The notes under the pieces: generated by a model | Seen by the model: only the letters and a program-made list of their open reading frames with translations | What the model was told of the DNA's origin: nothing | The model's database searches: none | Translations under genes and position numbers: made by a program | DNA from: Arthrobacter sp. HY1533 | Lineage (GTDB): Bacteria; Actinomycetota; Actinomycetes; Actinomycetales; Micrococcaceae | Length of the DNA stretch: 50,127 bases | NCBI RefSeq assembly: GCF_027568515.1 | Contig: NZ_JANKZF010000034.1 | Location: 1-50,127, forward strand | Direction of reading: 5' to 3' | Part shown: positions 27,931 to 46,862 of the stretch, in pieces | Layout: each line of letters opens with the position of its first letter | How positions within the stretch are numbered: the stretch's first letter is position 1

Positions 27931-28608
27931 CTATGCGCCGCGCCGTCCACCGCGGCGCCGCACCAGCAATTCGGGAAAGGCTCGATGCAGTGGCAGCACG
28001 ATTGCCACGGCGATGGCGCATTTGAGCAGGTCCCCGGGAACAAACATCAGGTCCGCCGCGGCGGCCGCCTGCGCCGACAATTTCCCATTGACCATCATGC
28101 CTAAGATGCCCATTGCATGAATAGCCGCTGTGCCGGCCAACGCAGCAATGGACAGTCCCACCACCCTGGGAACTGATCGGTGCAGCAACAGCGTGGTGAC
28201 AGCGCCGGCCACGAACGCCCCGGCAACGAAGCCCAGGATGTACCCAGCACCGGGGCTCAGCAGAATTCCGGGGCCGCCTCGGAACGAGGAGAAGATGGGC
28301 AGGCCCATGACACCCAGCAGCACATAGAGGCCCAGGGCAGCCCCCGCCCGCACGGCACCCAGTGCCAGGCCAACCATAATCACCATCATCGTCTGAATCG
28401 TGATGGGGACTCCGAGCAAATTGCCCGCCGGCAGGGCGGGAACCACCGCCGCCACAGCAACCAACGCCGCAAAAACTGCCACGTAGGCAAGATCCTGGGC
28501 GGTCCAGGCCCTTCTCGCTCCCGCCCGAGAACGGCCGGGTTGCCCCTTAGCCAGCCCGGCCGCGGCCAGTCCACCGGCGGCCGGGTCAGCGGATTCTGGC
28601 GCCAGCAT
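27931..28608 (-). CDS. bioY: Biotin transporter BioY (ECF S component)
   Basis: The 225-residue membrane protein has about six hydrophobic segments after a cytosolic N-terminal stretch. Its BioY features are VPITIQTMMVIMVGLALGAVRAGAALGLYVLLGVMGLPIFSSFRGGPGILLSPGAGYILGF. BioY binds biotin for uptake with or without the ECF energy module, and no ecfA/ecfT genes are in this window. Its start overlaps the stop of the aconitase X small subunit by one base (TGATG), so it is translated with that operon. This placement next to a biotin-dependent carboxylase suggests it supplies that enzyme's cofactor. Confidence 0.93.
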   Translation of the reverse strand: MLAPESADPAAGGLAAAGLAKGQPGRSRAGARRAWTAQDLAYVAVFAALVAVAAVVPALPAGNLLGVPITIQTMMVIMVGLALGAVRAGAALGLYVLLGVMGLPIFSSFRGGPGILLSPGAGYILGFVAGAFVAGAVTTLLLHRSVPRVVGLSIAALAGTAAIHAMGILGMMVNGKLSAQAAAAADLMFVPGDLLKCAIAVAIVLPLHRAFPELLVRRRGGRRGA

Positions 28609-29030
28609 CAGAGTTCCCTGCCATCCACAGTTTCAAGCACCGTCAGTTCCATGTTGGCTGGATCAAGGCTGATCCTGTCGCCGGTCTTGATGCCGCTGAG
28701 GCAGGCACCATCGATTCCGCTGGCAATCGGGATGCCAGCCGTTACGGCACCTTGCACCATGACCGGATTGGTGTCGCCAAAAACCAAGCCGGCGAAGCCC
28801 ACACCCCGCTGCGCCATGGCCAGGAGGGCCCACCCGGCAGCCACGCCGCCCTGAACCCCGGGGGAGATGAAAATCTTCCCCGTGATGGACTCACCCCGCA
28901 GGGGATGATCGATCCTGCTGATAATGCCGCGGGTGCGGTCCAGGTCGTAGCGGGCACTAAATGGCACCGGGCTGACCAGAGCCTCTCCCTCGATGGTCTT
29001 TCCGACGGCTCGTTTCAGGGCGTATTTCAT
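28608..29030 (-). CDS. Aconitase X small (swivel, DUF126) subunit
   Basis: The 140-residue protein is the swivelling beta-domain of aconitase X. Visible features are LVSPVPFSARYDLDRTRGIISRIDHPLRGESITGKIF, then PGVQGGVAAGWALLAM and FGDTNPVMVQGAVTAGIPIASGI. In this superfamily the small domain closes over the active site. The start at 29030 has AAGGAG seven bases upstream, inside the end of the large-subunit gene, whose stop lies at 29032. It works as a pair with that subunit. Confidence 0.92.
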   Translation of the reverse strand: MKYALKRAVGKTIEGEALVSPVPFSARYDLDRTRGIISRIDHPLRGESITGKIFISPGVQGGVAAGWALLAMAQRGVGFAGLVFGDTNPVMVQGAVTAGIPIASGIDGACLSGIKTGDRISLDPANMELTVLETVDGREL

Positions 29031-29031
29031 T

Positions 29032-30305: not shown

Positions 30306-30359
30306 ATACGTTTCGATACCTTTACATACCTTTATAGACGTTCGGTGATTGTGACGCAA
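30306..30359 (-). promoter_or_regulatory. Promoter and operator A of the aconitase X operon
   Basis: On the minus strand a -35 TTGCGT (30359-30354), a 17-base spacer and a -10 TATAAA (30336-30331) precede operator A, AGGTATCGAAACGTAT (30321-30306). The operator lies just downstream of the expected transcription start. The 9-mer ATACCTTTA occurs on the plus strand at 30316 and 30326, ten bases apart, and the second copy overlaps the -10. A repressor here would block elongation or open complex formation. Confidence 0.6.
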
Positions 30360-30462: not shown

Positions 30463-30517
30463 TTGCGATTCAAGTCACAAGTGATTACCGTTGAAGAAAA
30501 TACGTATCGAAACGTAT
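30463..30517 (+). promoter_or_regulatory. Promoter and operator B of the DUF35-thiolase operon
   Basis: A -35 TTGCGA (30463-30468), a 17-base spacer and a -10 TACCGT (30486-30491) are followed after ten bases by operator B, ACGTATCGAAACGTAT (30502-30517). It sits inside a perfect 7-6-7 inverted repeat (30499-30518). The gene start is at 30554. Operators A and B match at 15 of 16 positions and face opposite ways in this divergent region. Confidence 0.6.
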
Positions 30518-30553: not shown

Positions 30554-30943
30554 ATGAATTCCAATGCATACTTCCGCGAATACAGCGCAAGAGCCGCAAG
30601 CGGCAGCGCCGTGCTGCCGCGCTGTGGCCACTGCAGCACCGTTTTCATGCCGCCACGGGCTGCCTGCCCCGAATGCGGTGCAGCGGATCCCGGCTGGATG
30701 CCGGCCAACGGCGCCGCCGGAACCCTTTACAGCTTCACTGTGATGGGAGAGGGCGCCCAGGAACGGATCATCGGCCTGGCGGAGCTGGATGCCATCACCG
30801 ACGGCAGCAAGTTCTATGCGCAGCTCCTGTGCGATGACACGTCCCAGCTGACCATGGGGGCCGCGGTCACGGTGGGCACGGCAGATCTCGGCAGTGGCGA
30901 ACTGGTTCCCGTGCTGACGCTGCGGGGTGCTGGCAATGACTGA
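30554..30943 (+). CDS. DUF35 OB-fold/Zn-ribbon protein (acyl-CoA-associated)
   Basis: The 129-residue protein has a zinc ribbon (Cys24, Cys27, Cys38, Cys41 in PRCGHC and CPECG) and an OB-fold: GTLYSFTVMGEGAQERIIGLAELDA. DUF35 proteins partner with thiolase-fold enzymes, and some form thiolase-DUF35 complexes that condense or cleave acyl-CoA. Here the next gene overlaps its end and encodes such a partner. It is the first gene of the plus-strand catabolic operon, behind operator B. Confidence 0.9.
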   Translation: MNSNAYFREYSARAASGSAVLPRCGHCSTVFMPPRAACPECGAADPGWMPANGAAGTLYSFTVMGEGAQERIIGLAELDAITDGSKFYAQLLCDDTSQLTMGAAVTVGTADLGSGELVPVLTLRGAGND

Positions 30944-32069
30944 GACGGCACTGGCAGGAATGGGCATGAGCGCCACCAGCGCCCCCCACCACCGGGACGC
31001 CCTGGACATCATGGCTGACTCCGCACTCGCCGCCGTGCGGGATTCCGGACTCAGCCTCAAGGACATCGACGGCATCTTCACGGCCACGGCACAAGTTGAC
31101 CTGCCCACACTGGCATTGAGCGAACATCTGGGCATCACGCCCCGGTATCTGGACTCCACGGTCCACGGTGGGGCATCAAACCTCTCGCACATCCACCATG
31201 CCGTCAGCGCCATCCGCGACGGCAAGTGCGAGGCGGCCCTGGTGGTCTACGGCAGCACCCAGCGCACCATGCTCAAGGCAACGGGAAAGCGCCCCGCTGT
31301 GGCATCCTGCCCCCCTGTGGAATCCCTGTACAACCCCTTGTTCCCCATCTCCTCGTATGCGCTGATGGCACAACGGCACATGCTCGAATTCGGCACCACC
31401 CGCCGGCAGCTCAGTTCCGTGGCCGTGGCGGCAAGCCGCTGGGGCGCCCTCAACCCGGCAGCCCAGCGCAGGGACATCATTTCGGCCGAGGATGTTACGG
31501 CGTCACCAAAGATCTCCTCCCCGTTCCACAAGCTGGACTGCTGCCTGATCACGGACGGGGCCGGCGCCGTGGTGGTGACGACGGCACAGCGGGCCGCCCG
31601 TCTGGGCCGCGCTCCCGTGGCAATCCTCGGCTCCGGCGAATACTCATCGCACGAAGGCATGATGGCCATGAAGGACTTGGTGCGCACGGGCGCTGCCGTC
31701 TCAAGTCAGGCCGCCTTCGCCCAAGCTGGGCTGGGGCCAGCGGACATGGACGTGGCCCAGGTGTACGACGCCTTCACCATCAACACCATCCTGCTGCTGG
31801 AGGACCTGGGCTTTTGCGCCAAGGGCACCGGCGGGCAGTTCATTGAAGAAGGTCACACCAGCCCGGGCGGCCGCTTGCCCACCAACACCAGCGGCGGCGG
31901 ACTCGCCTTTTCACACCCCGGCATGTTTGGCATCTACACCGTATTGGAGGCCATGACACAGCTGAGGGGCCAAGGTGGCGACCGGCAGGTGCCAGGGGCC
32001 GCAAAAGCCGTGGCCCACGGAATTGGCGGCACAATGTCCGCCCACACCACTTTGGTCCTGGGCGGCTAA
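30936..32069 (+). CDS. Thiolase-fold protein (SCP2-thiolase-like, non-canonical)
   Basis: The 377-residue protein has the thiolase fold: DIMADSALAAVRDSGLSLKDIDGIFTATAQ at the start, VYDAFTINTILLLEDLGF (Tyr277) in the middle, GGGLAFSHPGMFGIY near the end and GIGGTMSAHTTLVLGG at the C-terminus. The nucleophilic cysteine normally found in the first third is absent (STVHGGASNLSH). Related Cys-less proteins, such as the Ltp2 steroid aldolase, cleave C-C bonds by retro-aldol chemistry with a DUF35 partner. It overlaps the DUF35 gene by eight bases. An alternative GTG start lies at 30927. Confidence 0.88.
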   Translation: MTETALAGMGMSATSAPHHRDALDIMADSALAAVRDSGLSLKDIDGIFTATAQVDLPTLALSEHLGITPRYLDSTVHGGASNLSHIHHAVSAIRDGKCEAALVVYGSTQRTMLKATGKRPAVASCPPVESLYNPLFPISSYALMAQRHMLEFGTTRRQLSSVAVAASRWGALNPAAQRRDIISAEDVTASPKISSPFHKLDCCLITDGAGAVVVTTAQRAARLGRAPVAILGSGEYSSHEGMMAMKDLVRTGAAVSSQAAFAQAGLGPADMDVAQVYDAFTINTILLLEDLGFCAKGTGGQFIEEGHTSPGGRLPTNTSGGGLAFSHPGMFGIYTVLEAMTQLRGQGGDRQVPGAAKAVAHGIGGTMSAHTTLVLGG

Positions 32070-32124: not shown

Positions 32125-34197
32125 ATGGAGCGCTTATTCAACCCCCGCAAGATCGCAGTTGTGGGAGCATCGGCCAATGAGGATGCGATTGGCGGCAAGC
32201 CAATCAAGCAATTGCGCAGTCACGGTTTTGGCGGGGAGATTTTTCCCGTCAACCCCAATCGCGACGTGGTCCAGGGCCTGCCCTGCACCACGTCCGTCAG
32301 CGCGCTGCCAGACGGAATAGACCTGGCCATCATCGCCGTGGCCGCTCCGAGGGTGGCAGGAGTTATCACCGAATGCGGCGAGCGCAACATCCCCTATGCA
32401 TTGGTCCTCAGCTCCGGATTCGCCGATGCCGGATCAAGCGGGGCGGCACTTCAGGACGAGCTGCTGGAAGCAGCAGCTGCCGCCAAGGTGCGCATCATGG
32501 GCCCCAACGGGGTTGGCTTCATCAACATGAAGGACGGCATCTACGCCGGGTTCGGCGCCTTCTTTGACTACCACTTCAACGCCGGCGGTGTGGGGTTCGT
32601 GACCCAGAGCGGTGGAGTGGGCGGTTCCATGCTGACCATCGCCGATGACGAAGGGATCGACTTCGGCTACTTCGTCCACACCGGCAACGCCGCGGACATT
32701 GACATTGAATCCATCCTGGAGCATTTTGTGGGCGATGACTCGGTCACCACAATGGTGGCCTACGTCGAAGGGCTCGGCCAGTCAGCGGCTTTGAAGTCCA
32801 TCGCGTACAGCGCGCTGCAGGCCGACAAGCCCCTGGTCATCTGGAAGGCCGGGCAGCACGCCAGCAGCATGTCCGCCGTCGTATCCCACACGGGGCGATT
32901 GGCCGGAGACATTGAACGGTACCGTTCCATATTTGCCAAGTACGGTGTCATCGAAGTGGATGACTCCCTGGACATGGTTGATGTCCTGCGGCTCTCGCAA
33001 AACCAATTCCGGCCAGCTGGTGGCCGCGTGGGCGTGGTCTCCGTATCCGGCGGTGCCGGCGTAGTGGCAGCGGACGTCCTGGAGGGCGCCCAGCACCTGG
33101 AATTGGCCCAGTTGGGGGAAACCGCCGAGGCCCAGATCGGCGCCCTGCTGCCCACGTTCGCAACGGCGCAGAACCCAATCGACGTCACCGCCCAGATCTT
33201 CAACGAGCCGGACCTGTTTGAGAAGGTGGTATCGGTGCTGCAGGAGAATGCGGCCGTGGACCAGATCCTGGCCTGCGTCGCCTCAGTCCACAGCGAGGTG
33301 GGAGTCAAGATCGCCACGGCAATCGTGGCCGCCGCAGACTCGCTCAAACTGCCCATCGTTGTCTCCTGGGCGTCCCGGGACAGCCTGAACGCGGAGGCAT
33401 TCAAGCTCCTGGCGGACGCCAACATCCCCGTGTTCCGGAGTCCGGAACGCGGGCTCAAGGCCATGGACCGGATCACGGCGTTCACAAGCGCCCAGGCCGG
33501 GCTCGCGGACATGATTGCGCCAAATGCAGCCGCCACCGGTGGCGGCACACGCGACTGGCACCGCAGCGTCGAATTTGACGTCTTGTCTGCTCTGGCAAGC
33601 TACGGCGTTGAGGTGCCGGAGCAACGCCTGGCCACCACGGCAGAGGAAGCGGTCGCCGCGGCGGATGCGGTCGGCTTTCCCGTGGCCGTGAAAATCCAGT
33701 CACCCGACATCCCCCACAAGGTGGACGCCGGCGGGGTGAAACTGCGCCTGCACGATGCCGCCCAGGTCTTCTCCGGCACCGCTGAAGTTTTCGCCAATGT
33801 GGCCAAGCTCGGCCCCGTTGAATCACGTGGCGTCGTAGTCCAGCGCATGGCCAATCCGGGCACGGAACTCATTCTCGGGTACATCAAGGACGCCTCCCTG
33901 GGTGGCTTCATCCTGTGCGGGGCCGGCGGCTCCAACGTGGAGTCCATCAATGACCGCGTGCTGATTCCCACCCCTGCAACCCAGGACGAAATCCGGGCCG
34001 GACTTGCGTCACTGGCCGTGCTGGCGGACTTCACCGGAGACGACACCATGCTGGGAAAGGTGGCCGGCGTCATGGAGGCCCTGCAGCAATTTGTGGCAGA
34101 TTCCTCCCCGAATCTCCAGGAAGTGGAAATCAACCCGGTCATCATCAGCGACGGTCACGTCACCGCCGTGGACGCACTCGCCATCCAAGCCCATTAA
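32125..34197 (+). CDS. ADP-forming acyl-CoA synthetase (acetate-CoA ligase type, fused alpha-beta)
   Basis: The 690-residue protein fuses the CoA-binding Rossmann domain (RKIAVVGASANEDAIGGKPIKQL), two succinyl-CoA-ligase-like domains and a C-terminal ATP-grasp domain (RSVEFDVLSALASYGVEVPEQRLAT; AVKIQSPDIPHKVDAGGV). The phosphorylated histidine of this family is His255 in VVSHTGRLAGD. It converts an acid, CoA and ATP to acyl-CoA, ADP and phosphate, or runs backwards to make ATP. The substrate is not known. Start 32125 has AGGAG five bases upstream; an earlier in-frame ATG lies in the preceding gene and is rejected. Confidence 0.93.
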   Translation: MERLFNPRKIAVVGASANEDAIGGKPIKQLRSHGFGGEIFPVNPNRDVVQGLPCTTSVSALPDGIDLAIIAVAAPRVAGVITECGERNIPYALVLSSGFADAGSSGAALQDELLEAAAAAKVRIMGPNGVGFINMKDGIYAGFGAFFDYHFNAGGVGFVTQSGGVGGSMLTIADDEGIDFGYFVHTGNAADIDIESILEHFVGDDSVTTMVAYVEGLGQSAALKSIAYSALQADKPLVIWKAGQHASSMSAVVSHTGRLAGDIERYRSIFAKYGVIEVDDSLDMVDVLRLSQNQFRPAGGRVGVVSVSGGAGVVAADVLEGAQHLELAQLGETAEAQIGALLPTFATAQNPIDVTAQIFNEPDLFEKVVSVLQENAAVDQILACVASVHSEVGVKIATAIVAAADSLKLPIVVSWASRDSLNAEAFKLLADANIPVFRSPERGLKAMDRITAFTSAQAGLADMIAPNAAATGGGTRDWHRSVEFDVLSALASYGVEVPEQRLATTAEEAVAAADAVGFPVAVKIQSPDIPHKVDAGGVKLRLHDAAQVFSGTAEVFANVAKLGPVESRGVVVQRMANPGTELILGYIKDASLGGFILCGAGGSNVESINDRVLIPTPATQDEIRAGLASLAVLADFTGDDTMLGKVAGVMEALQQFVADSSPNLQEVEINPVIISDGHVTAVDALAIQAH

Positions 34198-34227: not shown

Positions 34228-34779
34228 ATGACAGAACAAGCACCCATCCTCACGTTCCAGGAACTCGACAGCATCCTGCGCATCATCGACTCCGCACCAC
34301 GGGACGGCGAAATCAAGATCACCGTGGGGGATGTGACACTGGAGGTGGCCACCCGCAGCGGCACCGTTGCCAGCCCCTCGGCCATTGCCCCGGCGCCCGC
34401 GGTAGAGGCGGCGACACCGACTCCGGCCCCCGCCGCGGTAGCCGCGCCCACCGCCGCTCCCGCCCCCGCAGCCGCCACAACCGCGCCGGCACCCGCAGCC
34501 CCGGAAGCCGAGGGGGAGCTGGCCGGGCTCGCCGTCGTGGCCGCGCCAATGACGGGCGTGTTCTATGCCAAGCCAAGTCCCACAGCGGACCCGTTCGTCC
34601 AGGTGGGCGAGAGCGTAACCGAGGGCCAGGACCTGGGCATCATCGAGGTCATGAAGCTTATGAACCGCATCACCTCACCCGTGGCCGGCGTGGTGCGCCG
34701 CATCAATGCAAGCAACGAGGACCTTGTGGAACATGGTTCGGCGCTGTTCTACATTGAGGCCTCGGACGGGGACTCCTAA
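34228..34779 (+). CDS. Biotin carboxyl carrier protein
   Basis: The 183-residue protein has a leading helical segment (LTFQELDSILRIIDSA), a long Ala/Pro linker (residues about 55-105) and a C-terminal biotinyl domain with the motif EVMKLMN, where Lys143 is biotinylated. AccB-type organisation is clear. It is the carrier arm shared by the biotin carboxylase and carboxyltransferase encoded next. The start at 34228 is a choice; ATGs at 34219 and a GTG at 34204 are possible. The stop overlaps the next start by one base (TAATG). Confidence 0.92.
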   Translation: MTEQAPILTFQELDSILRIIDSAPRDGEIKITVGDVTLEVATRSGTVASPSAIAPAPAVEAATPTPAPAAVAAPTAAPAPAAATTAPAPAAPEAEGELAGLAVVAAPMTGVFYAKPSPTADPFVQVGESVTEGQDLGIIEVMKLMNRITSPVAGVVRRINASNEDLVEHGSALFYIEASDGDS

Positions 34780-36164
34780 TGCGCCGCGTCCTAGTGGCCA
34801 ACAGGGGTGAGATTGCGGTCCGGATCATTCGGGCCTGCCAGGAAGCCGGAGTGGAAAGCGTGGCCGTCTACTCCGAGGCCGACGCTGCATCCCGGCACGT
34901 GCTCCTGGCCGACCGCGCCGTGCGGATCGGCCCGTCCAAGCCGGCCGAGAGCTACCTGCGGGCGGACACCATTGTCCAGGTCGCCCTGGCCACCGGCTGC
35001 GATGCCGTGCACCCCGGCTACGGCTTTCTTGCCGAGAATGCTGCGTTCTCCAGAATGTGCGCCGAGAACGGGCTGATTTTCATTGGCCCTTCCCCCGAGG
35101 TCATCGACCAGCTTGGGGACAAGGTGTTTGGCCGCCGGATCGCCACCCAAGCGGGAATCCCCGTGGTTCCGGGCACCGGCGACAAGGCCGCAACGTACGA
35201 GGACCTGGTGGAGCTGGGCCGCACGGCGGGGTTCCCCATCCTGATCAAGGCCGCGGCCGGCGGTGGCGGCCGCGGCATGCGGATCCTGAATTCCGAAGCC
35301 GAGGTCCGCAGCAACTTTGAGGACGCCCAGCGTGAATCGCTGGCCGCATTTGGCTCCGAGGTGATCTTTGCGGAGCGGTTCCTGACGGAAATCCGGCACG
35401 TGGAGGTCCAGGTCCTGGGTGACCACGGCGGCACCGTGGTGCATGTCGGCACCCGCGACTGCAGTGTCCAGCGCCGTTACCAGAAGGTCATTGAGGAGGG
35501 CCCCGCGGTCAGCATCCCCCTCGAGTCGCGCCACCGGATTGAGGACGACGCCGTGAAGCTCGTCTCCGAGATTGGCTACGTGGGCGCAGGAACCGTGGAA
35601 TTCGTGGTGGACATGAAGACCGGCAACCACCATTTCATCGAGATGAACACCCGCATCCAAGTGGAGCACCCGGTCTCGGAAATGATTTCCGGATTCGATC
35701 TGGTCCGTGAGCAGCTGTGGGTGGCTGATCCTGAGCATCGGCTCTCCTTCACCCAGGAGGAGGTCTCGCTGCGCGGAAACGCCATTGAATTGCGCATCTG
35801 CGCGGAAAACCCGTCCAACGGCTTCGCCCCCTCCCCCGGCCTGATCACCGAGCTCGTCCTGCCCGGCGGGCCGGGCATCCGGGTTGACACCCACTGTGTG
35901 CCCGGTTGGAAAGTCTCTCCCTACTACGACTCGATGATCGCCAAATTGGTGATTCACGACGTCGACCGTCCGGCAGCCATCCGGCGGGCCCTGCGGGCAC
36001 TCGATGAGACCCGGATCGGAGGGATCCACACCAACATCATGTTCCTCAAGAGCATCCTCAGCCACCCTGACTTCGTGGCCAACTCCGTCCACACCAAATG
36101 GGTGGAGCAACACCAAGACGAGTTGCTGGAGCCGCCGGTCCGCACAACGCTGCAGCCGGCCTAG
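34779..36164 (+). CDS. Biotin carboxylase (AccC-like)
   Basis: The 461-residue protein is a complete biotin carboxylase. It has the N-terminal LVANRGEIAVRIIRACQEAG, the ATP-grasp glycine-rich loop LIKAAAGGGGRGMRI, EVQVLGDHGGTVVHVGTRDCSVQRRYQKVIEE, and FIEMNTRIQVEHPVSEMI with metal and bicarbonate contacts. It carboxylates the biotin on the carrier encoded upstream, using ATP and bicarbonate. The absence of an acyl-CoA carboxyltransferase (crotonase fold) nearby and the presence of a pyruvate-type one suggest it serves a keto acid rather than an acyl-CoA. Confidence 0.94.
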   Translation: MRRVLVANRGEIAVRIIRACQEAGVESVAVYSEADAASRHVLLADRAVRIGPSKPAESYLRADTIVQVALATGCDAVHPGYGFLAENAAFSRMCAENGLIFIGPSPEVIDQLGDKVFGRRIATQAGIPVVPGTGDKAATYEDLVELGRTAGFPILIKAAAGGGGRGMRILNSEAEVRSNFEDAQRESLAAFGSEVIFAERFLTEIRHVEVQVLGDHGGTVVHVGTRDCSVQRRYQKVIEEGPAVSIPLESRHRIEDDAVKLVSEIGYVGAGTVEFVVDMKTGNHHFIEMNTRIQVEHPVSEMISGFDLVREQLWVADPEHRLSFTQEEVSLRGNAIELRICAENPSNGFAPSPGLITELVLPGGPGIRVDTHCVPGWKVSPYYDSMIAKLVIHDVDRPAAIRRALRALDETRIGGIHTNIMFLKSILSHPDFVANSVHTKWVEQHQDELLEPPVRTTLQPA

Positions 36165-38476: not shown

Positions 38477-38514
38477 AAAGAGGCCGGCCCCACGCTGACG
38501 GGGCCGGCCTCTTT
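38477..38514. terminator. Perfect 15-bp hairpin terminator
   Basis: Arms 38477-38491 and 38500-38514 (AAAGAGGCCGGCCCC and its complement) are perfect, with an 8-nt loop and flanking A/T runs. It ends the catabolic operon after the SDR gene and can also serve the minus-strand TauE gene, whose stop overlaps its edge. Confidence 0.9.
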
Positions 38515-39257: not shown

Positions 39258-39286
39258 CTGTTCCCTTCGAAGCCACTGAACAAAAG

Positions 39287-39322
39287 GACTCGGCTGCCGG
39301 AGGTATCTCCGGCAGCCGAGTC
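39287..39322 (-). terminator. Hairpin terminator behind the ABC operon
   Basis: Bases 39287-39302 and 39307-39322 form a perfect 16-bp stem with a GTAT loop. On the minus strand it is followed by TTTTG, which fits a terminator for the importer operon that ends at 39355. It separates that operon from the TauE-like gene. Confidence 0.9.
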
Positions 39323-39354
39323 GTGTTGGACGTGCCCTGTGCGGGCGGTGTTTG

Positions 39355-40179
39355 CTACCCTCGGCCCAGCCAGTGGACAAGCTTCTTTTCCACAAACCCC
39401 AGTGTGAGGTTCAGTGCAAGCCCAATCAGGCCAATCAGGATGATGCCAATAAAGACAGTGGGAATGTCGAAGAACAGGGCGGCCTGGTTGATCATGAACC
39501 CCAGCCCCTTCTGGGCCCCGACGAGTTCCGCGGCCACCACCACGGCCCAGCTCAGGGCCAGCGCCACCTTCAGACCGGCAAAAATGTTCGGCAGCGCCGA
39601 GGGCACAATGACGTGGAAGAATTCCTGCACCCGGCTCACGCCCAAGGTGGCGGCTGCCCGGCGATACGCCACCGGAACACCTGCCGCCCCTGCTTGGGCG
39701 TTGACCACCGTGTAGTTGAAGGACGTCACCGTGATCAGCACAATCTTTCCCGTCTCACCCAATCCGAAGTAAAGCACCGCCATCGGAATGAACGCGATGG
39801 GGGGAATGGGGCGGATGAAAGACATGATCGGTGAAATTGCAGCGTTGAAAACCCGGTTGGACCCAGCAATGAGACCTACTATGATGCCCGCAACGGAGCC
39901 AATGACAAATCCCACCAAGGTGCGGGTCAGGCTGATGCCGATGTGGCCGAGCAAACTCGCACCGCCGTAGCCGTCACGGGCCAGTTCCAGGAACCGGGAC
40001 AGGAGTGCCTGGGGTGAGGGGAACTGGCGTTCGCCCACAATCCCCGTGTTGGTCAGCACAAACCACAACACCAAAATCACCACGAGTGAGATGACCGAGA
40101 TGACCGGGCTGGGCATCTGGCGTTTGCGTGAATCACTCGCTGCTGGAACGGCCACTCGGGCCGACTTGGTCAGGACCAT
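39355..40179 (-). CDS. ABC transporter permease (SsuC/TauC/NitT family)
   Basis: The 274-residue permease has six or so hydrophobic segments and the family coupling motif in YRRAAATLGVSRVQEFFHVIVPSALPNIFAGLKVALALSWAVVVAAEL. This is the NitT/TauT branch that carries taurine, alkanesulfonates, nitrate or aromatic and other small acids. It lies two bases after the stop of the second binding-protein gene, and ends the importer operon before a terminator. It is the only permease for two binding proteins. Confidence 0.92.
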   Translation of the reverse strand: MVLTKSARVAVPAASDSRKRQMPSPVISVISLVVILVLWFVLTNTGIVGERQFPSPQALLSRFLELARDGYGGASLLGHIGISLTRTLVGFVIGSVAGIIVGLIAGSNRVFNAAISPIMSFIRPIPPIAFIPMAVLYFGLGETGKIVLITVTSFNYTVVNAQAGAAGVPVAYRRAAATLGVSRVQEFFHVIVPSALPNIFAGLKVALALSWAVVVAAELVGAQKGLGFMINQAALFFDIPTVFIGIILIGLIGLALNLTLGFVEKKLVHWLGRG

Positions 40180-40181
40180 GG

Positions 40182-41228
40182 CTACTTCGCCTCCTTTACT
40201 GCCGACTGCAGGTACTGGGGATCCAGTGCCTTGCGCAAGGTTTCCTCGGGAACCGGTGCCTTGATGACCCCCAAGTCGGCAAACGTTGTCGAGGCGAGGT
40301 TCAGTTGTGCAAACAGCCCCTTGTCCCCGACGAAGGAGTACCGGTTTCCGGCGTCGAGTTCGTCGGCAAATGACGGATTCGCGTCGATGTAGAGCTTCGC
40401 CACTTCATCGGCCACGGCCTTGGAGACATGGAGGCGCTTCACCAATGCCTCGCTGGCCACATTGTGGTCGGCATTGATGTCCGCCCACGCCCGACCCAAC
40501 GCCTTGAGCATCTTCGCAGGAATCTCGGGGTTTTTGTCCAGGAAGGTGGGATTTCCCGCATGCATCTCCGGGCAGCTGCCGCCGCCGGGGACCCAGTCCT
40601 TGTCGTAGCCGATGAGTTTTTGCCCCTGCTGGCTGAGGTCAACCAGGTACGGTGACCAGGAGAAGCCGGCACCGATGGACTTGCTGGAGAACGCGTTGGC
40701 GTAGAGGTTGGGCGTGATGTTCACGGTGTCCAGATCCGCATAGTTGACCCCTGCCGCCTTGGCTGCCCAGTAGGCGGAAATTTGGGCGCAGGTGCCGGTC
40801 GGGACACCTATCTTCCCCGCTTGGGCGAGGTCCTTGACGGACTTCACCGGCGAATCTGCGGAAACCACCAGTCCTTCGGCTGCCGACGCGTCCCCTTCTA
40901 GGGCAATGTAGCGCAGCGGGATTCCCTGGCCCAGGGCAAAAACGGAGGCCAGTCCGGTGGTGATGACGTCCAGGCTGTTGCTCTGCAGTCCAGCCAGCAT
41001 GGGCGTTCCGGTTTGGAAAACCTGGAATTGCGGATCCAGACCCTCATCCTTGAAGTAGCCTTTGTCGTCTGCAACGTAGAGGGCCAGGTACGACCCCTGG
41101 GCAATTCCCCAGTTGAACTTGACCCCCGAGTTGTCGTTGTTGGGAGTGGCGGCACCGGCGTTGCCGCAGGCAGCCAGAGTGCCAAGGAGTGCCACGGACG
41201 CAAGCGCCGCGAGTGTTTTCCTGATCAT
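40182..41228 (-). CDS. ABC substrate-binding lipoprotein (TauA/SsuA-like), copy B
   Basis: The 348-residue lipoprotein has a lipobox LAAC (Cys21). The binding domain begins FNWGIAQGSYLALYVADDKGYFKDEGLDP and includes SLDVITTGLASVFALGQG and GKIGVPTGTCAQIS. It is of the NMT1/TauA type. It is strikingly similar to the neighbour at 41288 and of equal length, so the two arose by tandem duplication. Its ligand-site residues may differ. No sulfonate-specific hallmark can be read with confidence. Confidence 0.92.
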   Translation of the reverse strand: MIRKTLAALASVALLGTLAACGNAGAATPNNDNSGVKFNWGIAQGSYLALYVADDKGYFKDEGLDPQFQVFQTGTPMLAGLQSNSLDVITTGLASVFALGQGIPLRYIALEGDASAAEGLVVSADSPVKSVKDLAQAGKIGVPTGTCAQISAYWAAKAAGVNYADLDTVNITPNLYANAFSSKSIGAGFSWSPYLVDLSQQGQKLIGYDKDWVPGGGSCPEMHAGNPTFLDKNPEIPAKMLKALGRAWADINADHNVASEALVKRLHVSKAVADEVAKLYIDANPSFADELDAGNRYSFVGDKGLFAQLNLASTTFADLGVIKAPVPEETLRKALDPQYLQSAVKEAK

Positions 41229-41287
41229 GATTGTTGCTCCTGTTGCTGGTCGTAACGAGAGTTGTTGGCAACGTGGGGTGGCTGCGC

Positions 41288-42334
41288 CTACTTGGCCGCC
41301 AGCCCCGCCGCCTGGACATATTGGGGGTCGAGGGCCTTGCGCAGCACGTCCTTGGGCACCGGCGCCTTGATGACCCCCAACTTGGCAAAAGTTTCAGAGG
41401 CAACTGTCAGTTGTGCAAACAAGCCGTTGTCCCCCGTGAAGGAAAACTGGCTGTTGGGGTCCAGCTGCTGTTCCAGGGTCGGGTAGGTTTCGATGTAGCG
41501 TTCGGCCGTAACTTCCGCCACCTCCTTGGAAACATGGAGGCGCTTCATGAGTGTGTCCACGGCAATGGATTTGTCGGCCTTGATGTCAGCCCAGGCCTTG
41601 CCCAGCGCCCGGACAATCTTGGTGGGCACCTGCGGGTTCGCATCCAAAAATGCGGGGTTGCCGGCGTGCATCTCAGGGCACGCTGCACCGCCGGGCACCC
41701 ATTCGGCGTCATACCCCACGATGCGCTGCCCCTGAAGGGACAAATCGGCCAGGTAGGGCGACCAGGAGATGCCTGCTGTGATGGACTTGCTCGCAAAAGC
41801 ATTTCCCATGAGATTGGGCGTGATGTTCACAATGTCCAGATCCGAAAGCTCAAGCCCGGCTGCCTTCGCCGCAAAGTATGCCGAAATCTGCGCACACGTT
41901 CCGGTCGGCACCCCGATCTTGCCCGCCTGGGCGAGATCCTTGACGGACTTGACTGGCGAATCCGCGGCAACCACCAGCCCTTCAGTGGCAGAGGCATTCC
42001 CTTCGGCCACGATGTAACGCAGGGGGATGTCCTTGCCCAGGGCAAAAATGCTGGCAAGGCCGGTGGTGACCACGTCCAGACTGTTGCTTTCAAGTCCCGC
42101 AAGTAATGGCGCCCCGGTCTGAAACACCTGGAACTGCGGGTCCAGGCCTTCGTCTTTGAAGTAACCCTTCTCGTCGGCAACATACAAGGTGAGGTATGAC
42201 GCCTGGGGCACTCCCCAATTGAATTTTGTACCTTCGCCGGGCCCGCCTGCAGCAGGTGCCGCCGCGTTGCCGCACCCGGAGATGGCTGCGAGGAGGGAAC
42301 CGGCCGCCATGGCCGCCAGAATTCGCTTGTTCAT
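41288..42334 (-). CDS. ABC substrate-binding lipoprotein (TauA/SsuA-like), copy A
   Basis: This 348-residue lipoprotein has a lipobox ISGC (Cys21) and the same layout as the copy at 40182: FNWGVPQASYLTLYVADEKGYFKDEGLDP, then SLDVVTTGLASIFALGKD and GKIGVPTGTCAQIS. The copies differ in scattered positions (for example TGTPMLAGLQ against TGAPLLAGLE), which may tune ligand preference. It is 14 bases downstream of the ATPase gene and 59 bases upstream of its twin. It captures the substrate for the shared permease. Confidence 0.92.
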   Translation of the reverse strand: MNKRILAAMAAGSLLAAISGCGNAAAPAAGGPGEGTKFNWGVPQASYLTLYVADEKGYFKDEGLDPQFQVFQTGAPLLAGLESNSLDVVTTGLASIFALGKDIPLRYIVAEGNASATEGLVVAADSPVKSVKDLAQAGKIGVPTGTCAQISAYFAAKAAGLELSDLDIVNITPNLMGNAFASKSITAGISWSPYLADLSLQGQRIVGYDAEWVPGGAACPEMHAGNPAFLDANPQVPTKIVRALGKAWADIKADKSIAVDTLMKRLHVSKEVAEVTAERYIETYPTLEQQLDPNSQFSFTGDNGLFAQLTVASETFAKLGVIKAPVPKDVLRKALDPQYVQAAGLAAK

Positions 42335-42348
42335 CGGCTGTATTCCTG

Positions 42349-43158
42349 TCAGTGTCCGGCGCGGGAGGCCGTGATTTCCTGTTGCACGGTTTCCAAAATC
42401 TGGTGCTCCAGGCTGGTGAATGAAGGCGTGGTGAGGAAGTCAATGGAGCGCGGCTTCGGTTCGGTGACATCCACCTCGAGCTTGACCCGACCGGGCCGCG
42501 CCCCCATGACGATGACCCGGTCGGAAATGTAGATGGCCTCCGACACGTCGTGGGTGATGAAGAGGATGGTGGGGCGGAACTCCGCCCAAAGCTCAAGCAG
42601 CAGTTGCTGCATAAGGATGCGTGTTTGATAGTCGAGGGCGCCAAATGGTTCGTCCATCAGCAGCACCTCGGGGTTGGAAATCAAGGCCCGGGCAATCTGG
42701 ACCCGCTGCTGCATGCCGCCGGAAATTTGATACGGGTAGTGTTTTTCAAAGCCGCTGAGGCCCACAGCCTTGATGAACTTCTCGGCGCCGGCCTGATACT
42801 GCTCCTTGTCCATGCCGCGTGACTTGACCCCGAAGACCACGTTTTCGAAAACGTTCATCCAGGGAAACAGGGCAGCATGCTGGAACACGACGGCGCGGTC
42901 CGGGCCCGGTTTGTGGATGTGCGATCCGTCCAGCAGCAGGCTGCCGTTGCTGGGTGAATCGAAGCCGGCCACCATGTTCAGTGCAGTGGACTTTCCACAG
43001 CCCGTGGGGCCCACAATGGAGACGATTTCTGATTCCTTTACAGCCAAGTTCAAGTCGAGAAGTGCGGAGATCCGGTCTCCCGTCTTCGACGGAGCTGCGA
43101 AGATCTTGTCTACCTGGGAAAAGACAATCTTGCCTGATTCGGCGGTCACCTTGTTCAT
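42349..43158 (-). CDS. ABC transporter ATP-binding protein (SsuB/TauB-like)
   Basis: The 269-residue ATPase has Walker A GPTGCGKST, signature ISGGMQQRVQIARAL and Walker B VLLMDEPFGALDYQTR, followed by FITHDVSEAIYISDR. It is the NitT/TauT type and powers the permease at 39355. Start 43158 has AAGGAG six bases upstream; a second possible start at 43206 has GGAG eight bases upstream, and would add 16 residues without homology. It is the first gene of the importer operon, behind operator C. Confidence 0.92.
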   Translation of the reverse strand: MNKVTAESGKIVFSQVDKIFAAPSKTGDRISALLDLNLAVKESEIVSIVGPTGCGKSTALNMVAGFDSPSNGSLLLDGSHIHKPGPDRAVVFQHAALFPWMNVFENVVFGVKSRGMDKEQYQAGAEKFIKAVGLSGFEKHYPYQISGGMQQRVQIARALISNPEVLLMDEPFGALDYQTRILMQQLLLELWAEFRPTILFITHDVSEAIYISDRVIVMGARPGRVKLEVDVTEPKPRSIDFLTTPSFTSLEHQILETVQQEITASRAGH

Positions 43159-43485
43159 GCCCTGCTCCTTGGCAATGCTGGTTTCAGCGGAAAGTACGGT
43201 TTGCATCTTTGCGGCTCCAATGAGGTTATGGAACTAGGAACGTATAGATACGTATTTGAGTCAACGATAACCATATGTGACACAGATCGCAATACCTTTA
43301 GGTATGAATGTTGCCCGCGAATCCCACCAGCCGCACGTTCGGACGCCCGGATTGGCCAGATATCCAATGAATCGCCCAAATTGTTCGTCTCGAATGAGTG
43401 GCTGCGTGCTAGCATCAAGACATACCTAATTGTCACTAAACCTTCTGGAATAATGTCGACTCTGCCACTACACCATGGGGGAATC
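43159..43485. other. Divergent intergenic region of importer and HutC regulator
   Basis: This 327-base region holds the promoters of the importer operon and the regulator gene. It contains operator C, an ATACCTTTAGGTAT palindrome at 43292-43305 and no other convincing coding sequence. The stretch 43306-43485 shows nothing beyond a short ATACCTAAT element near 43425. If translation of the ATPase starts at 43206, the first 48 bases are coding. Confidence 0.8.
43240..43305 (-). promoter_or_regulatory. Promoter and operator C of the importer operon
   Basis: On the minus strand a -35 TTGCGA (43292-43287), 17-base spacer and -10 TATCGT (43269-43264) are followed by operator C, ACGTATAGATACGTAT (43255-43240), which matches operator B at 14 of 16 positions. 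The operator lies eight bases after the -10, as at the aconitase X promoter. ATACCTTTAGGTAT (43292-43305), a perfect palindrome holding the 9-mer seen twice at 30316-30334, abuts the -35. Confidence 0.6.
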
Positions 43486-44268
43486 ATGGCCGATTCAAGA
43501 TCCAATGGACTGTCCGTCCTGCAGCGCAATAGCGCCGTTGCCGTCTACCAACAGATGGCCGACGTCCTGCTGGACCAGGTCCGGAGCCTTCAGCCGGGCT
43601 CCCGCTTCCACACAGAGGAAGAGCTCATCGAGCAATACGGCGTCAGCCGCACCACTGTGCGCAAGGCCATTCAGACCTTGACGGAGAAGGGCTTCCTGGT
43701 CCGCCGCCAAGGCAAGGGAACCTTCGTTACATCCACCCGGCCCATTCAGTCGATGAACCGTCTTGCACCCTTCGTTGAGTCATTCACCGCTGCCGGACTG
43801 AACCCGGTTGTCTCCCTGCTGGACTATCGGTGGGTCGAGGGAAACCGCGGCGTTCCCGGCCATATTGCGAACGCAGACACGTCATTCCTTGTGGTCCGGC
43901 GGGCATACCTTTCCGAGGGCACACCGTTTGCCGTGGCAGACATTTTTGTTCCGGCCTCCATTGGCCGGCTCGTCAGCCGTGCCGACGTTGAAAAGCACCC
44001 CATCTACCACGTCATTCAGGAACGTTCCGAGAAGCAGGTGACCCACGCGGAACTCATTGTGACCCTGCAGGCCCCGCCCGCGGACCTGGTGGAAATGCTC
44101 AATGTCGCCGAATTCCCTTTAATTCCTAGGCTCGAACGAGTCACATACGGTCTCAACGACGAGATACTCGAATGCACTGTCACACATTTTCACCCTAGCG
44201 GCTTTGAAATCCGCACCGACGTCGCCACCGATGCCCAGCAAGACTTCAATTACACCTTCAACACTTAG
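43486..44268 (+). CDS. GntR/HutC-family transcriptional regulator
   Basis: The 260-residue protein has an N-terminal winged helix (VAVYQQMADVLLDQVRSLQPGSRFHTEEELIEQYGVSRTTVRKAIQTLTEKGFLVRRQGKGTFV) and a C-terminal UTRA effector domain (LDYRWVEGN; SFLVVRRAYLSEGTPFAVADIFVP; LERVTYGLNDEILECTVTHFHP). HutC members bind small acids, amino acids or sugars. It is divergent from the importer. The four operators in the island make it the likely controlling repressor. The ATG at 43486 has GGGGGAATC upstream; longer upstream frames lack domain sequence. Confidence 0.93.
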   Translation: MADSRSNGLSVLQRNSAVAVYQQMADVLLDQVRSLQPGSRFHTEEELIEQYGVSRTTVRKAIQTLTEKGFLVRRQGKGTFVTSTRPIQSMNRLAPFVESFTAAGLNPVVSLLDYRWVEGNRGVPGHIANADTSFLVVRRAYLSEGTPFAVADIFVPASIGRLVSRADVEKHPIYHVIQERSEKQVTHAELIVTLQAPPADLVEMLNVAEFPLIPRLERVTYGLNDEILECTVTHFHPSGFEIRTDVATDAQQDFNYTFNT

Positions 44269-44327: not shown

Positions 44328-44645
44328 CTAGATTTCGATGTGCCGAGTTTCCTTCAGCCAGGTCCTGATGGTCTTGGCCCCACTGGCGGCCGTGTGCTCA
44401 CGTGCGGCCTTCCATTCCTCCGAGTTGTACGCCGTCATTGCGGCGTCCCAGTCGGCAAATTCGAGGTAGTCGGTTCCTGCGATGGCGGGGTCATTGTTTG
44501 CCTCGTCGGAACCGGCCAAGTTGATGGTGTAGCTGAGCAGCCCCGGCATCTGCTTGGCCAGTGGCGCGTGCTCCTCCAACCACCAGCGGTGCTGCTCGTC
44601 CAGGGACTGTTCATTGCGGAACAGGATGATGGCGATCTTGGTCAT
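44328..44645 (-). CDS. EthD-domain protein
   Basis: The 105-residue protein opens with KIAIILFRNEQSLDEQHRWWLEEHAPLAKQMPGLLSYTINLA and continues TDYLEFADWDAAMTAYNSEEWKAARE, the ferredoxin-like fold of EthD and small dimeric alpha/beta-barrel proteins. Some members act as lactone-muconolactone isomerases or assist oxygenases; this one has no assigned reaction. The start at 44645 has AAAGG seven bases upstream. It is 53 bases downstream of the MFS gene and probably in the same transcript. Confidence 0.85.
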   Translation of the reverse strand: MTKIAIILFRNEQSLDEQHRWWLEEHAPLAKQMPGLLSYTINLAGSDEANNDPAIAGTDYLEFADWDAAMTAYNSEEWKAAREHTAASGAKTIRTWLKETRHIEI

Positions 44646-44698: not shown

Positions 44699-46060
44699 CT
44701 ACGCGTGTGCAAAAAGCCTGGCTTTCGTCCTTTCCGGCCTGATGAGAACCATGGCCAGGACACCACCGACCACCATGAGCATTCCCAGGAGGCCGAAAGC
44801 GCGGGCGAAGCCCTCAGCGGCAGTGCCGGCCCCGTCGATCATCAGGCCGGTGACGTAGGGGCCAACCAGCCCGCCCAAGGTGAGCAGCGCCAGGAACGTA
44901 CCTTGCACCGCGCTGCGCTGCGCGGTGGGGGTGATGTCGGCCAGGACCACCATGGAAACCACATGGATCATGTGGCCAAATTCGAATCCGACCACCAAGG
45001 CAATGAGCGCCACGATGCCGCCGGGCCCCCAGGCCAGAACAGAGACTGCCACGCCGGCAATCAGGACACCGACGCCACCCACAAAACCCCGAGCCCACCG
45101 GGAACTGATGCCCCGGCTTAGGAGCCGTTGCGAGACCAGCGGCTGCAACAACAGACCGATGGCGCCGAATATCCACGGAAGGATAATCAAGGTTCCCGTT
45201 TGCGTTGGCGTATAGCCCAGGACCGTTTCCATGAACGACGGCACCCACGCGACAAGGACGGACAAAGACCAGTAAGCCGCGAAGCTGGCCACGAGACACC
45301 CCACAAACGTTCCACTGGTGAACAGCCGCCAGTAGGAAAATACGTACTTCTCCTCCTCCGGAATGGCAGCGGGGGACTCGCCACGCCCGGCCGCCGGCGC
45401 AACAACGCCTACGCCGCGCTTGAGGCGGACCGTGAGGGGTCCGTCTTTGCCAACAAAGGCCCAAGCGACAGCCCATGCCGCGCTCAGGACGCCCAGCAGC
45501 ACGAAGGCTGTGTGCCAGTTGAAAGTGGCGATGACCCATGTCAGGCCTGGGCCTGCCACCACCACGCCCAGGGTCGAGCCGACAGTGATTATTGCCGTGG
45601 GCAGGTTCCGCCGGGTGTCCGTAAACCAGCTGTGGGCCGTGTGCACGGCCATTGGGTAGGCCGGGCCCTCGCCTGCGCCCAGCGCGATGCGGCTGATCAT
45701 CAGAGCCGTGAAGCCCACGGCGCCCGCCATGGGAACTAATGAAATGGTCCAGACAATGGCCAAGGAGAACAGGATCCACTTGGGTGAGACCCGAGTGGTG
45801 ATGAATCCGACCACCAAGGCTGAAATGCTAAAAAGGAAGTAGAAGCCGCTTGCCAACAGGCCAAACTCTCCGGCGGTCAGGCCAAGCTCTTCACGAATCG
45901 GAGTTGCAGCCAATCCAATGACGGCTTTGTCTCCGAAGTTGATCAGAATGAACAGGAACAACATGGCCACAACAATCCAGCCGCGCACGCCGGAATGCCC
46001 TCTTGAGACCTCCCGGGCAGGCCGAAGGGCCAGCGTTGAGTTGGACCGTGGGGATTGCAT
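44699..46060 (-). CDS. MFS transporter (anion:cation symporter type)
   Basis: The 453-residue protein has about twelve hydrophobic segments. It opens with GWIVVAMLFLFILINFGDKAVIGLAATPIREELGLTAGEFGLLASGFYFLFS and has RIALGAGEGPAYPMAVHTAHSWF, a signature of the ACS branch that carries hexuronates, galactonate, phthalate or related acids. It is a second uptake route in the island beside the ABC importer. Start 46060 is chosen for a nearby AGGAAT; an earlier in-frame codon at 46090 is less likely. Confidence 0.92.
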   Translation of the reverse strand: MQSPRSNSTLALRPAREVSRGHSGVRGWIVVAMLFLFILINFGDKAVIGLAATPIREELGLTAGEFGLLASGFYFLFSISALVVGFITTRVSPKWILFSLAIVWTISLVPMAGAVGFTALMISRIALGAGEGPAYPMAVHTAHSWFTDTRRNLPTAIITVGSTLGVVVAGPGLTWVIATFNWHTAFVLLGVLSAAWAVAWAFVGKDGPLTVRLKRGVGVVAPAAGRGESPAAIPEEEKYVFSYWRLFTSGTFVGCLVASFAAYWSLSVLVAWVPSFMETVLGYTPTQTGTLIILPWIFGAIGLLLQPLVSQRLLSRGISSRWARGFVGGVGVLIAGVAVSVLAWGPGGIVALIALVVGFEFGHMIHVVSMVVLADITPTAQRSAVQGTFLALLTLGGLVGPYVTGLMIDGAGTAAEGFARAFGLLGMLMVVGGVLAMVLIRPERTKARLFAHA

Positions 46061-46385
46061 GTGATTCCTAACTGGTGAAGATCCGCGCACAGCTGCCCCT
46101 CAGTCACCCGTGTGAACCACGTGACGGAGGGCACTTCAATGAGTGCCTACTAGATAGGAAACGTTATGAAACGTCTCTTGTCAACGCTTGGTCGTCGATT
46201 GTGACGTTCGCTCCGACACTCCGCCACCAATCTCCCCAGGAAACCAGGCACCTGCCGGGGCGAGAACTGGCCACCATCTGACTCGGGCAGCCTTCCTTCG
46301 CATGCATTGTTGCGGCAAAACTCTCGCGTTCCCCGAGTATTGCACTTTATGCTGAAGCCAACACTCACCTGAAGTTGGGAAATCC
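46061..46385. other. Divergent intergenic region with operator D
   Basis: This 325-base region separates the MFS and RraA genes. Operator D (ACGTTATGAAACGTCT, 46161-46176) matches operator B at 12 of 16 positions. A minus-strand TTGACA (46184-46179) with a weak TTTCCT 17 bases on lies across it, so the MFS gene could be repressed. A separate perfect palindrome, GGCACT-N6-AGTGCC, spans 46130-46147. A TATGCT at 46348-46353 may be a -10 for RraA. No other gene is seen. Confidence 0.6.
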
Positions 46386-46862
46386 ATGGCCATCTCCACT
46401 GCAGACCTGTATGACCAATACGGCACCGGGATGGCTTCGGTGTCTCTGCAGTTCAGGGATTTTGGCGGCCTGCCGGCCTTCAGCGGCGCCGCCCGCACCA
46501 TCCAGTGCGCGGCCGACAACGGCCTGGTCAAGGCAACATTGGCCACCCCCGGCCGTGGATCCGTGCTGGTGGTCGACGGCGGCGGCTCGCTCCAGAGCGC
46601 CCTGATGGGGGACATGATTGCCCAGTCGGCGGTGGACAACGGCTGGGCGGGTGTCATCATCAACGGCGCCATACGCGACAGCGTGGTCATCGCAACCCTT
46701 CCCCTGGGCGTCAAGGCGCTGGGGACCAACCCGGCCAAGAGTTCCAAGGCAGGTGTGGGGCGGGTCGATGTCCCCATCCACTTGGGGCATGTCACGGTCC
46801 ACGCCGGAGCCATGGTCTACGCGGATGCGGACGGGATCCTCATCGCGGCCAGCCACATGTGA
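46386..46862 (+). CDS. RraA-family aldolase (HMG aldolase-like)
   Basis: The 158-residue protein is an RraA/HMG-aldolase type. Features are LYDQYGTGMASVSLQFRDFGG, VLVVDGGGSLQSALMGDMIAQSAVDNGWAGVIINGAIRDS (Arg-Asp pair needed for metal-bound aldol cleavage) and YADADGILIA. Members split 4-hydroxy-4-methyl-2-oxoglutarate into two pyruvates and decarboxylate oxaloacetate, while true RraA proteins inhibit RNase E. The Arg-Asp pair favours the aldolase. Pyruvate or oxaloacetate would link it to the biotin-dependent carboxyltransferase, an inference. Confidence 0.9.
   Translation: MAISTADLYDQYGTGMASVSLQFRDFGGLPAFSGAARTIQCAADNGLVKATLATPGRGSVLVVDGGGSLQSALMGDMIAQSAVDNGWAGVIINGAIRDSVVIATLPLGVKALGTNPAKSSKAGVGRVDVPIHLGHVTVHAGAMVYADADGILIAASHM

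Follow-up and report, generated by a model that had tools for sequence, protein, structure and literature searches.

A rare, tightly conserved gene cluster in Arthrobacter and a possible carboxylation-to-retro-aldol route for 2-keto acids

Introduction

What sequence of reactions could call for two aconitase X (AcnX) subunits, a DUF35 protein, a thiolase-like protein without its cysteine, an ADP-forming CoA ligase, a three-part biotin-dependent carboxylase and a short-chain dehydrogenase/reductase (SDR), all encoded side by side? This set of genes lies in a stretch of 50,127 nucleotides from Arthrobacter sp. HY1533 (contig NZ_JANKZF010000034.1; the whole stretch is called the window here), and a sequence-only reading of it had suggested a catabolic island tied together by a shared operator. 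The enzyme families of the cluster are not known to work together, and no description of the gene combination was found among the titles and abstract openings listed from the open-licence PMC literature; the cluster looks like an undescribed route. Tentatively, and at somewhat below an even chance, we read it as a regulated catabolic cluster whose core forms one pathway that runs from a carboxylation to a retro-aldol cleavage.

Conservation of the cluster core

The core of the cluster is rare but tightly conserved. Peptide patterns derived from the carboxyltransferase (CT) were scanned against the genome_contigs collection, which is described as covering 84,980 species, and 22 matching stretches led to three related loci, in Arthrobacter sp. 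35W, Arthrobacter sp. MYb229 and Leucobacter chromiisoli. These patterns demand exact matches of eight residues, and relatives below about 70% identity may escape them, as the one in Aquisalimonas (66%) did. All three loci carry the large and small subunits of AcnX (AcnX-L and AcnX-S), the DUF35 and thiolase-like proteins, the ligase, the biotin carboxyl carrier protein (BCCP), the biotin carboxylase (BC), the CT and the SDR, along with the ATPase, permease and NMT1-type binding proteins of an ABC importer, a GntR regulator and an EthD-family protein. The expectation that the genes would travel together in other genomes is supported at each of these CT-found loci.

Identities to the window at the related loci are 64-76% for AcnX-L, 68-75% for the ABC permease, 72-79% for the ABC ATPase and 48-69% for GntR. 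The SDR gene lies directly 3' of CT in the window and in all three relatives, and two pairs of neighbours, carboxylase with SDR and DUF35/thiolase-like with ligase, are kept in four of four loci. Within the relatives the ABC genes stand between AcnX and DUF35 in a single long run; the ABC operon of the window (38514-43206) is on the far side and inverted compared with these clusters (L002-L004). There is one NMT1 binding protein in strain 35W and there are three at each of the other related loci, where the third, more divergent and near GntR/EthD (L003 13247-14269; L004 12389-13366), is of a type absent from the window cluster.

Other neighbours are shared less widely. BioY, RraA and the FAD oxidase of the window had no match at any of the three related loci (tblastn, E 1e-4), absences at the Leucobacter locus being less complete because its contig stops about 4.5 kb past EthD. 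A relative of the MFS transporter occurs at one of them (Arthrobacter sp. 35W, L002, 60% identity), as does one of TauE (L004, 33%). BioY and RraA had been listed among the linked parts; they are present in the window, and the lack of matches rules them out of the core and marks them as local additions.

Searches of genome sets convey how rare the cluster is. At E 1e-100, CT was found in one of 396 genomes of the order (its own), in two of 23 of the genus and in three of 395 of its family, the matches in other genomes of the genus and family being Arthrobacter sp. 35W and MYb229; among 299 genomes of the family to which Leucobacter chromiisoli belongs, its own was the single match. AcnX at E 1e-90 was found in three of 396 genomes of the phylum Actinomycetota, its own included. 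A scan of viral contigs found no relative of CT, and one of plasmids no match to EthD.

Within the protein database, the CT clade comprises 24 clusters at about 59-61% identity or more, set apart from 28 at 47-54% (among the best 120 of 5145 matches), and the EthD family is narrow, with 55 proteins at E 1e-15. Contig sizes were compared for 61 of the 120 listed CT matches, the best 120 of 6133 AcnX matches and all 55 EthD matches. CT and AcnX fall on contigs of the same size in six cases, CT and EthD in 13, among them Aquisalimonas and four cases from the CT group at 47-54%, and AcnX and EthD in eight, where equal size is a fingerprint rather than proof and may be a coincidence for shorter contigs. 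Fifteen clade CT clusters have a longest contig of at least 10 kb; nine of them match an AcnX or EthD contig size and six do not, and one of these six is the Leucobacter locus, though it carries both genes.

The carboxylase

An alignment of 120 CT sequences (24 of the clade, 28 of the sister group and 68 others), to which the CT domains of pyruvate carboxylase (Pyc) from two hosts were added, places the enzyme in the class of pyruvate carboxylase (PC) and OadA. Asp15, Lys176, His206 and His208, which we take to be the metal ligands, are invariant in 24 of 24 clade sequences, and the keto-acid residues Arg14 and Gln18 are invariant in these and in all 28 of the sister group. Through a common RD-x-x-Q motif the latter two correspond to Arg548 and Gln552 of Rhizobium etli PC, which bind pyruvate according to excerpts of PMC10653868.

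The rest of the pocket departs from Pyc. Position 17 is Ala or Val throughout the clade (24/24), Gln in 26 of 28 sister sequences, and His in 60 of the 68 others and in both Pyc. Position 116 is Met in 24/24 and 25/28, respectively, Thr in 65/68 of the others and Arg in Pyc, while position 209, after the HxH motif, is mostly Thr versus Asp in the Pyc of the two hosts. The CT does not reach the cut-offs of the pyruvate carboxylase equivalogs TIGR01235 and NF009554. In PC the catalytic Thr presumably sits in the VTP motif, and the residue placed there by the alignment is Ser in 120 of 120 CT sequences. Such a catalytic Thr is described in passages of PMC5895798. The changed pocket speaks for a substrate that is a 2-keto acid but not pyruvate. 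A role in pyruvate anaplerosis is weakened by a full-length canonical Pyc elsewhere in all four host genomes.

More distant carboxylases occur on plasmids, for which four of 31 records with CT matches were examined, one of them without annotation. For example, a Sulfitobacter dubius plasmid (L018 4319-10470) has a citryl-CoA lyase, on the other strand, near a BCCP/BC/BCCP/CT set, a TRAP transporter and GntR. Its CT is only 37% identical and the cluster could represent a parallel pathway with a different cleavage enzyme; the nearby lyase makes it plausible that such carboxylases are paired with cleavage of the citryl-CoA type. On plasmid pSA1 of Novosphingobium resinovorum (L020 1252-17920), CT/BC/BCCP stand with an AMP-forming ligase, a Cys-bearing thiolase, two PEP-utiliser/PPDK-like proteins and a pair of large proteins that match no Pfam family, a set that looks like ATP-driven ketone carboxylation. 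Plasmid p1 of Arthrobacter sulfonylureivorans (L019 8938-15921) carries CT/BCCP/BC with a LacI regulator and, after them, a set of biotin ECF transporter genes, BioY among them.

The cleavage step

The DUF35 protein has a zinc ribbon of the form C-x2-C-x10-C-x2-C (Cys 24, 27, 38 and 41), and its best solved match is the DUF35 domain of ChsH2 (6ok1_B, E 5e-06). Its thiolase-like neighbour had been described as Cys-less, correctly as far as the nucleophile is concerned: alignment puts Gly79 at the position of the nucleophilic Cys that defines thiolases, with Tyr277 of a YDAF motif and with His327. Gly in the nucleophile column and Tyr in YDxF recur in four of four loci, and Tyr277 aligns with Tyr294 of 6ok1_A; the comparator thiolase of the Novosphingobium plasmid retains Cys and His. 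Passages of PMC12329534 describe the YDxF Tyr as the base in two steroid aldolases, Ltp2 and Sal, and state that thiolysis by Sal is precluded by its Gly in place of the Cys. Ordinary thiolysis is rejected here on sequence, and the protein is predicted to be a retro-aldolase rather than a thiolase. The parts that had been proposed for the pathway, namely dehydration, CoA activation, C-C cleavage and transfer of CO2 to a keto acid, all fit these enzymes, with the amendment that retro-aldol cleavage suits the thiolase-like protein better than thiolysis.

Aconitase X and EthD

AcnX is the weakest step of the proposed route: its catalytic Ser is Gly, and the isomerisation assigned to it is hypothetical. 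Equivalents of Cys110, Cys342 and Lys361 (numbering of PMC8184944) are retained, and the Glu129/Ser130 pair is replaced by Asp/Thr. The marks compared with mevalonate-5-phosphate dehydratase are all changed, with Gly62 for Ser62(S), Ala298 for Cys283(L) and Gly-Asp-Pro for the Gly48-Val49-Ser50 phosphate loop. At the places compared with the characterised type the alignment gives Gly, Thr, Tyr and Ile, and the score with NF051439 is 210 of 700 bits; membership in the known AcnX types is ruled out by these alignments. Excerpts of PMC8184944 list types IIc-IIf as uncharacterised in 2021 and as without the landmark residues of the two known activities. In this subclass the change at Ser62 is regular: Gly stands there in 11 of 11 aligned small subunits and is preceded by FS[AP]RYDL in 10, the remaining one being incomplete.

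Relatives of AcnX on plasmids (six of 10 records examined, three without annotation) adjoin tripartite or TRAP transporters, and some loci also hold FAD-linked 2-hydroxyacid oxidases. AcnX has such oxidases, from different families, next to it or nearby in the window (24928-27786) and at L014 11167-12909, L007 8414-9850 and L028 14413-18245; tblastn with the window oxidase found no match at L012 and L013, where other oxidase families were not sought. A plasmid of Pseudorhizobium banfieldiae NT-26 (L028 9956-20238) combines an AcnX pair with malate synthase G, glycolate-oxidase subunits and an acetate-CoA ligase, and there the subclass may feed glyoxylate metabolism.

The EthD-family protein has invariant Arg9, Glu23, His25, Arg81 and Arg93 in 30 of 30 aligned sequences (numbered by the first of these, in which Met1 is missing). 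Its AlphaFold model has a pLDDT of 97.7, and a sequence search of solved structures gave no match better than E 0.077.

A shared operator

The palindrome WACGTWTNNAWACGTW, allowing up to two mismatches, has six matches in the window, three of which overlap one another, against 0.05 expected; genome-wide there are 15 such places, these six included. A control with the reversed pattern gave 24 places genome-wide, and since this exceeds 15, the two-mismatch level must be regarded as background across the genome. What speaks for an operator is the position of the copies and the occurrence of perfect and near-perfect ones: both perfect copies in the genome, and its only copy with one mismatch, fall in the window. 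Matches stand at the AcnX/DUF35, ABC/GntR and MFS promoters, bearing out the shared operator that had been proposed. Copies with one or two mismatches also occur in the gap between AcnX and ABC of the three related genomes, among other places, and before MFS in Arthrobacter sp. 35W. The start of RraA is about 210 bp from the nearest copy, the one upstream of MFS. The local GntR protein presumably controls the gene set by binding this operator.

Organization of the window

The features are collected in Table 1, with gene starts checked. All genes named in the sequence-only reading were found close to where it had placed them, through listing of open reading frames and Pfam/NCBIfam scans, and the family scans support its two AcnX subunits, DUF35 protein, ADP-forming ligase, three-part carboxylase, SDR, transporters and EthD. 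The AcnX subunits, BioY and the GlcD-like FAD/Fe-S oxidase are on the minus strand; a divergent promoter precedes the plus-strand run from DUF35 to SDR. Beyond SDR come TauE and the ABC importer (minus), GntR-UTRA (plus), EthD and MFS (minus) and RraA (plus). The ligase has an SHTG motif, which we take to be its phospho-His loop.

Table 1. Positions of the cluster genes and operator copies in the window.
Feature	Position	Strand	Basis
BioY biotin importer	27931..28608	-	PF02632
AcnX small (swivel) subunit, 140 aa	28608..29030	-	PF01989
AcnX large subunit, 416 aa	29032..30282	-	PF04412, E 5.8e-106
Three overlapping operator-like copies, upstream of AcnX	30307..30342		1, 2 and 2 mismatches
Operator copy, upstream of DUF35	30501..30516		perfect
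DUF35/ChsH2-like zinc-ribbon partner	30554..30943	+	PF12172 (zf-ChsH2/DUF35)
Thiolase-fold protein, predicted retro-aldolase	30936..32069	+	PF22691 (Thiolase_C_1), NF004811 passed
ADP-forming acyl-CoA synthetase, 690 aa, fused alpha-beta	32125..34197	+	CoA-binding/Succ_CoA_lig/ATP-grasp_5
BCCP	34228..34779	+	EVMKLM, Lys143
BC	34779..36164	+	Pfam/NCBIfam scans
CT, PC/OadA class, altered pocket	36182..37666	+	HMGL-like and PYC_OADA
SDR, predicted reductase of carboxylated keto acid	37666..38466	+	family scan
TauE/SafE-family permease	38514..39257	-	PF01925
ABC importer permease	39355..40179	-	PF00528
NMT1/SsuA-type substrate-binding protein 1	40182..41228	-	PF09084
NMT1/SsuA-type substrate-binding protein 2	41288..42334	-	PF09084; AlphaFold model pLDDT 85.2
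ABC importer ATPase	42349..43206	-	PF00005
Operator copy, between ABC operon and GntR	43239..43254		perfect
GntR-UTRA regulator	43486..44268	+	PF00392, PF07702
EthD-family small protein, predicted pathway enzyme	44328..44645	-	PF07110
MFS transporter with upstream operator copy	44699..46060	-	PF07690
Operator copy, upstream of MFS	46160..46175		2 mismatches

BioY overlaps the end of AcnX-S by one base and is the second in the genome, the other being on contig C33; bioB is present too. Its presence here, and that of a BioY/ECF set beside another CT cluster, fit a demand for biotin. Biotin as the pathway substrate is unsupported, as BioY is found at none of the three related loci and also accompanies another biotin carboxylase cluster. 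Degradation of a sulfonate, which TauE and the SsuA-like importer might suggest, was likewise set aside: TauE recurs at a single related locus, at 33% identity, and no desulfonating enzyme was found among the scanned cluster genes.

A proposed pathway and its alternatives

In the pathway that we propose, the ABC importer would bring in a small organic acid, and the input would be a 2-keto acid, R-CH2-CO-COOH, that is either imported or made from the import. A branched or hydroxylated di- or tricarboxylic acid, the substrate type put forward in the sequence-only reading, is neither favoured nor disfavoured by the data. Carboxylation next to the keto group by BC, BCCP and CT would give R-CH(COOH)-CO-COOH, a labile product that the SDR would reduce to a 3-substituted malate. 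AcnX may then remove water and add it back so that the hydroxyl moves to the adjacent carbon, and the ADP-forming ligase would convert the resulting tertiary alcohol into a CoA thioester. A retro-aldol cleavage by the DUF35/thiolase-fold protein would release acetyl-CoA and R-CO-COOH, which has one carbon less than the starting keto acid. The role of EthD is probably to act on a labile keto or enol intermediate, or to unmask the keto acid. Taken as a whole, such a route would consume CO2 in catabolism, shorten 2-keto acids by one carbon with release of acetyl-CoA and so reverse chain elongation of the leucine type, using an isomerising AcnX, a DUF35 aldolase analogous to citryl-CoA lyase and a new EthD enzyme; we regard this fuller version as possible, though doubtful.

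Several observations weigh against this pathway. CT was the gene that led to all three related loci, which makes the linkage conditional on it. The two AcnX types of known function only dehydrate, according to excerpts of PMC8184944, where Ser62(S) is the proposed base. AcnX-S has Gly62 at the place of this catalytic Ser of the archaeal enzyme, and in AcnX-L, with Ala298 for Cys283(L), one of the three cluster Cys is missing compared with either known type. Two other Actinomycetota AcnX matches (contigs of 11.7 and 7.4 kb) had no other core gene, and six plasmid AcnX loci had no carboxylase, ligase or thiolase of the cluster kind within 10-12 kb on each side; the subclass thus has other uses. 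The CT passes NF006761, a model named 'pyruvate carboxylase subunit B' (441.6 of 402 bits), and NF004811, which is passed by the thiolase-like protein, bears the name acetyl-CoA acetyltransferase. Neither Tyr344 of Ltp2 nor Cys304 of Sal, the second acid residue in these steroid aldolases, is conserved, the two positions having His and Ala, respectively, so the claim is that the protein works like them, not that it is one of them. We know of no NMT1-type importer for keto acids. Finally, the route would cost two ATP and reductant, an odd expense in a catabolic route unless R stands in the way of ordinary oxidation.

The same enzymes might act in another order, with AcnX first, on an imported hydroxy or unsaturated di- or tricarboxylic acid, the ligase and retro-aldolase then splitting it into a 2-keto acid and an acyl-CoA, after which the carboxylase and SDR would turn the keto acid into an acid of the oxaloacetate or malate type. 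The linkage and the residues serve this order equally, and tripartite tricarboxylate transporter genes at two of the plasmid AcnX loci accord with it. However, the hosts own Pyc and the CT has a pocket unlike that of Pyc, which would demand an unusual keto acid as the released product, and we consider this order unlikely, if a serious contender. Two or more separate functions could also be gathered under one regulator, for example with the AcnX and carboxylase modules acting on different compounds. The occurrence of the AcnX subclass without the other core genes is in line with this, as is the lack of AcnX within 9 kb at four related plasmid carboxylase loci. Against this stand the operator common to the modules, their joint retention at three of three related loci even though the ABC operon of the window is placed elsewhere, and the coincidence of AcnX, CT and EthD matches on contigs of the same size; a division of this kind seems improbable.

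Ketone carboxylation followed by thiolysis, in which the SDR would make a ketone, the biotin enzyme a beta-keto acid and the ligase its CoA ester for a thiolase to split, finds a parallel on the Novosphingobium plasmid, where the neighbours of a CT of 33% identity include an AMP-forming ligase and a thiolase with its Cys. In the four cluster loci, though, Gly replaces the nucleophilic Cys of the thiolase-like protein and the aldolase Tyr is present, the CT retains its keto-acid-binding residues, and AcnX would be left without a role, which makes the ketone route very improbable.

If the carboxylation-to-retro-aldol pathway holds, it would for the first time assign a function to AcnX of an uncharacterised kind, to a CT clade named only by homology, to the Cys-less thiolase-like subfamily and to the narrow EthD family. 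Growth tests could identify the substrate, since the cluster is compact, is present in named Arthrobacter strains and comes with an importer of its own and a predicted operator.

Comparison with known systems

The individual enzymes resemble characterised ones in part. The CT shares with those of pyruvate carboxylase and oxaloacetate decarboxylase the metal ligands, the Arg/Gln of the keto-acid site and a pass of NF006761, but unlike Pyc it has Ala/Val for the His of RDAHQ, Met for Arg116 and mostly Thr for the Asp after HxH. AcnX has the fold family, two-subunit form, two cluster Cys and active-site Lys of its characterised relatives, whereas the catalytic Ser is Gly, the third Cys is absent and substrate residues are changed. 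Like the Ltp2/ChsH2-DUF35 and Sal/Shy-DUF35 retro-aldolases, the thiolase-like protein has an adjacent DUF35 partner, the Gly seen in Sal and the Tyr base of YDxF; unlike them, it passes NF004811/PRK06158, has a motif that reads YDAF and a His where the second acid would be, and belongs to a cluster without steroid genes.

For the pathway as a whole, the closest comparison is the two-step arm of the reductive tricarboxylic acid (TCA) cycle in Aquificaceae (Hydrogenobacter), for which parts of PMC5441870 describe 2-oxoglutarate carboxylase, oxalosuccinate reductase, aconitase, citryl-CoA synthetase and citryl-CoA lyase. The proposed route would share with it the order of reaction types, a biotin carboxylase of the pyruvate carboxylase class, an NDP-forming CoA ligase and cleavage of a tertiary hydroxyacyl-CoA. 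The families differ at the three other steps, with an SDR for the reductase of isocitrate-dehydrogenase type, AcnX for aconitase and a DUF35/thiolase-fold protein for the lyase of citrate-synthase type, and the cluster stands in a catabolic setting with an importer and a regulator. The likeness is an analogy of logic only, and if the route is real, bacteria of the Arthrobacter type would have rebuilt the logic of the two-step reductive TCA arm from other enzymes.

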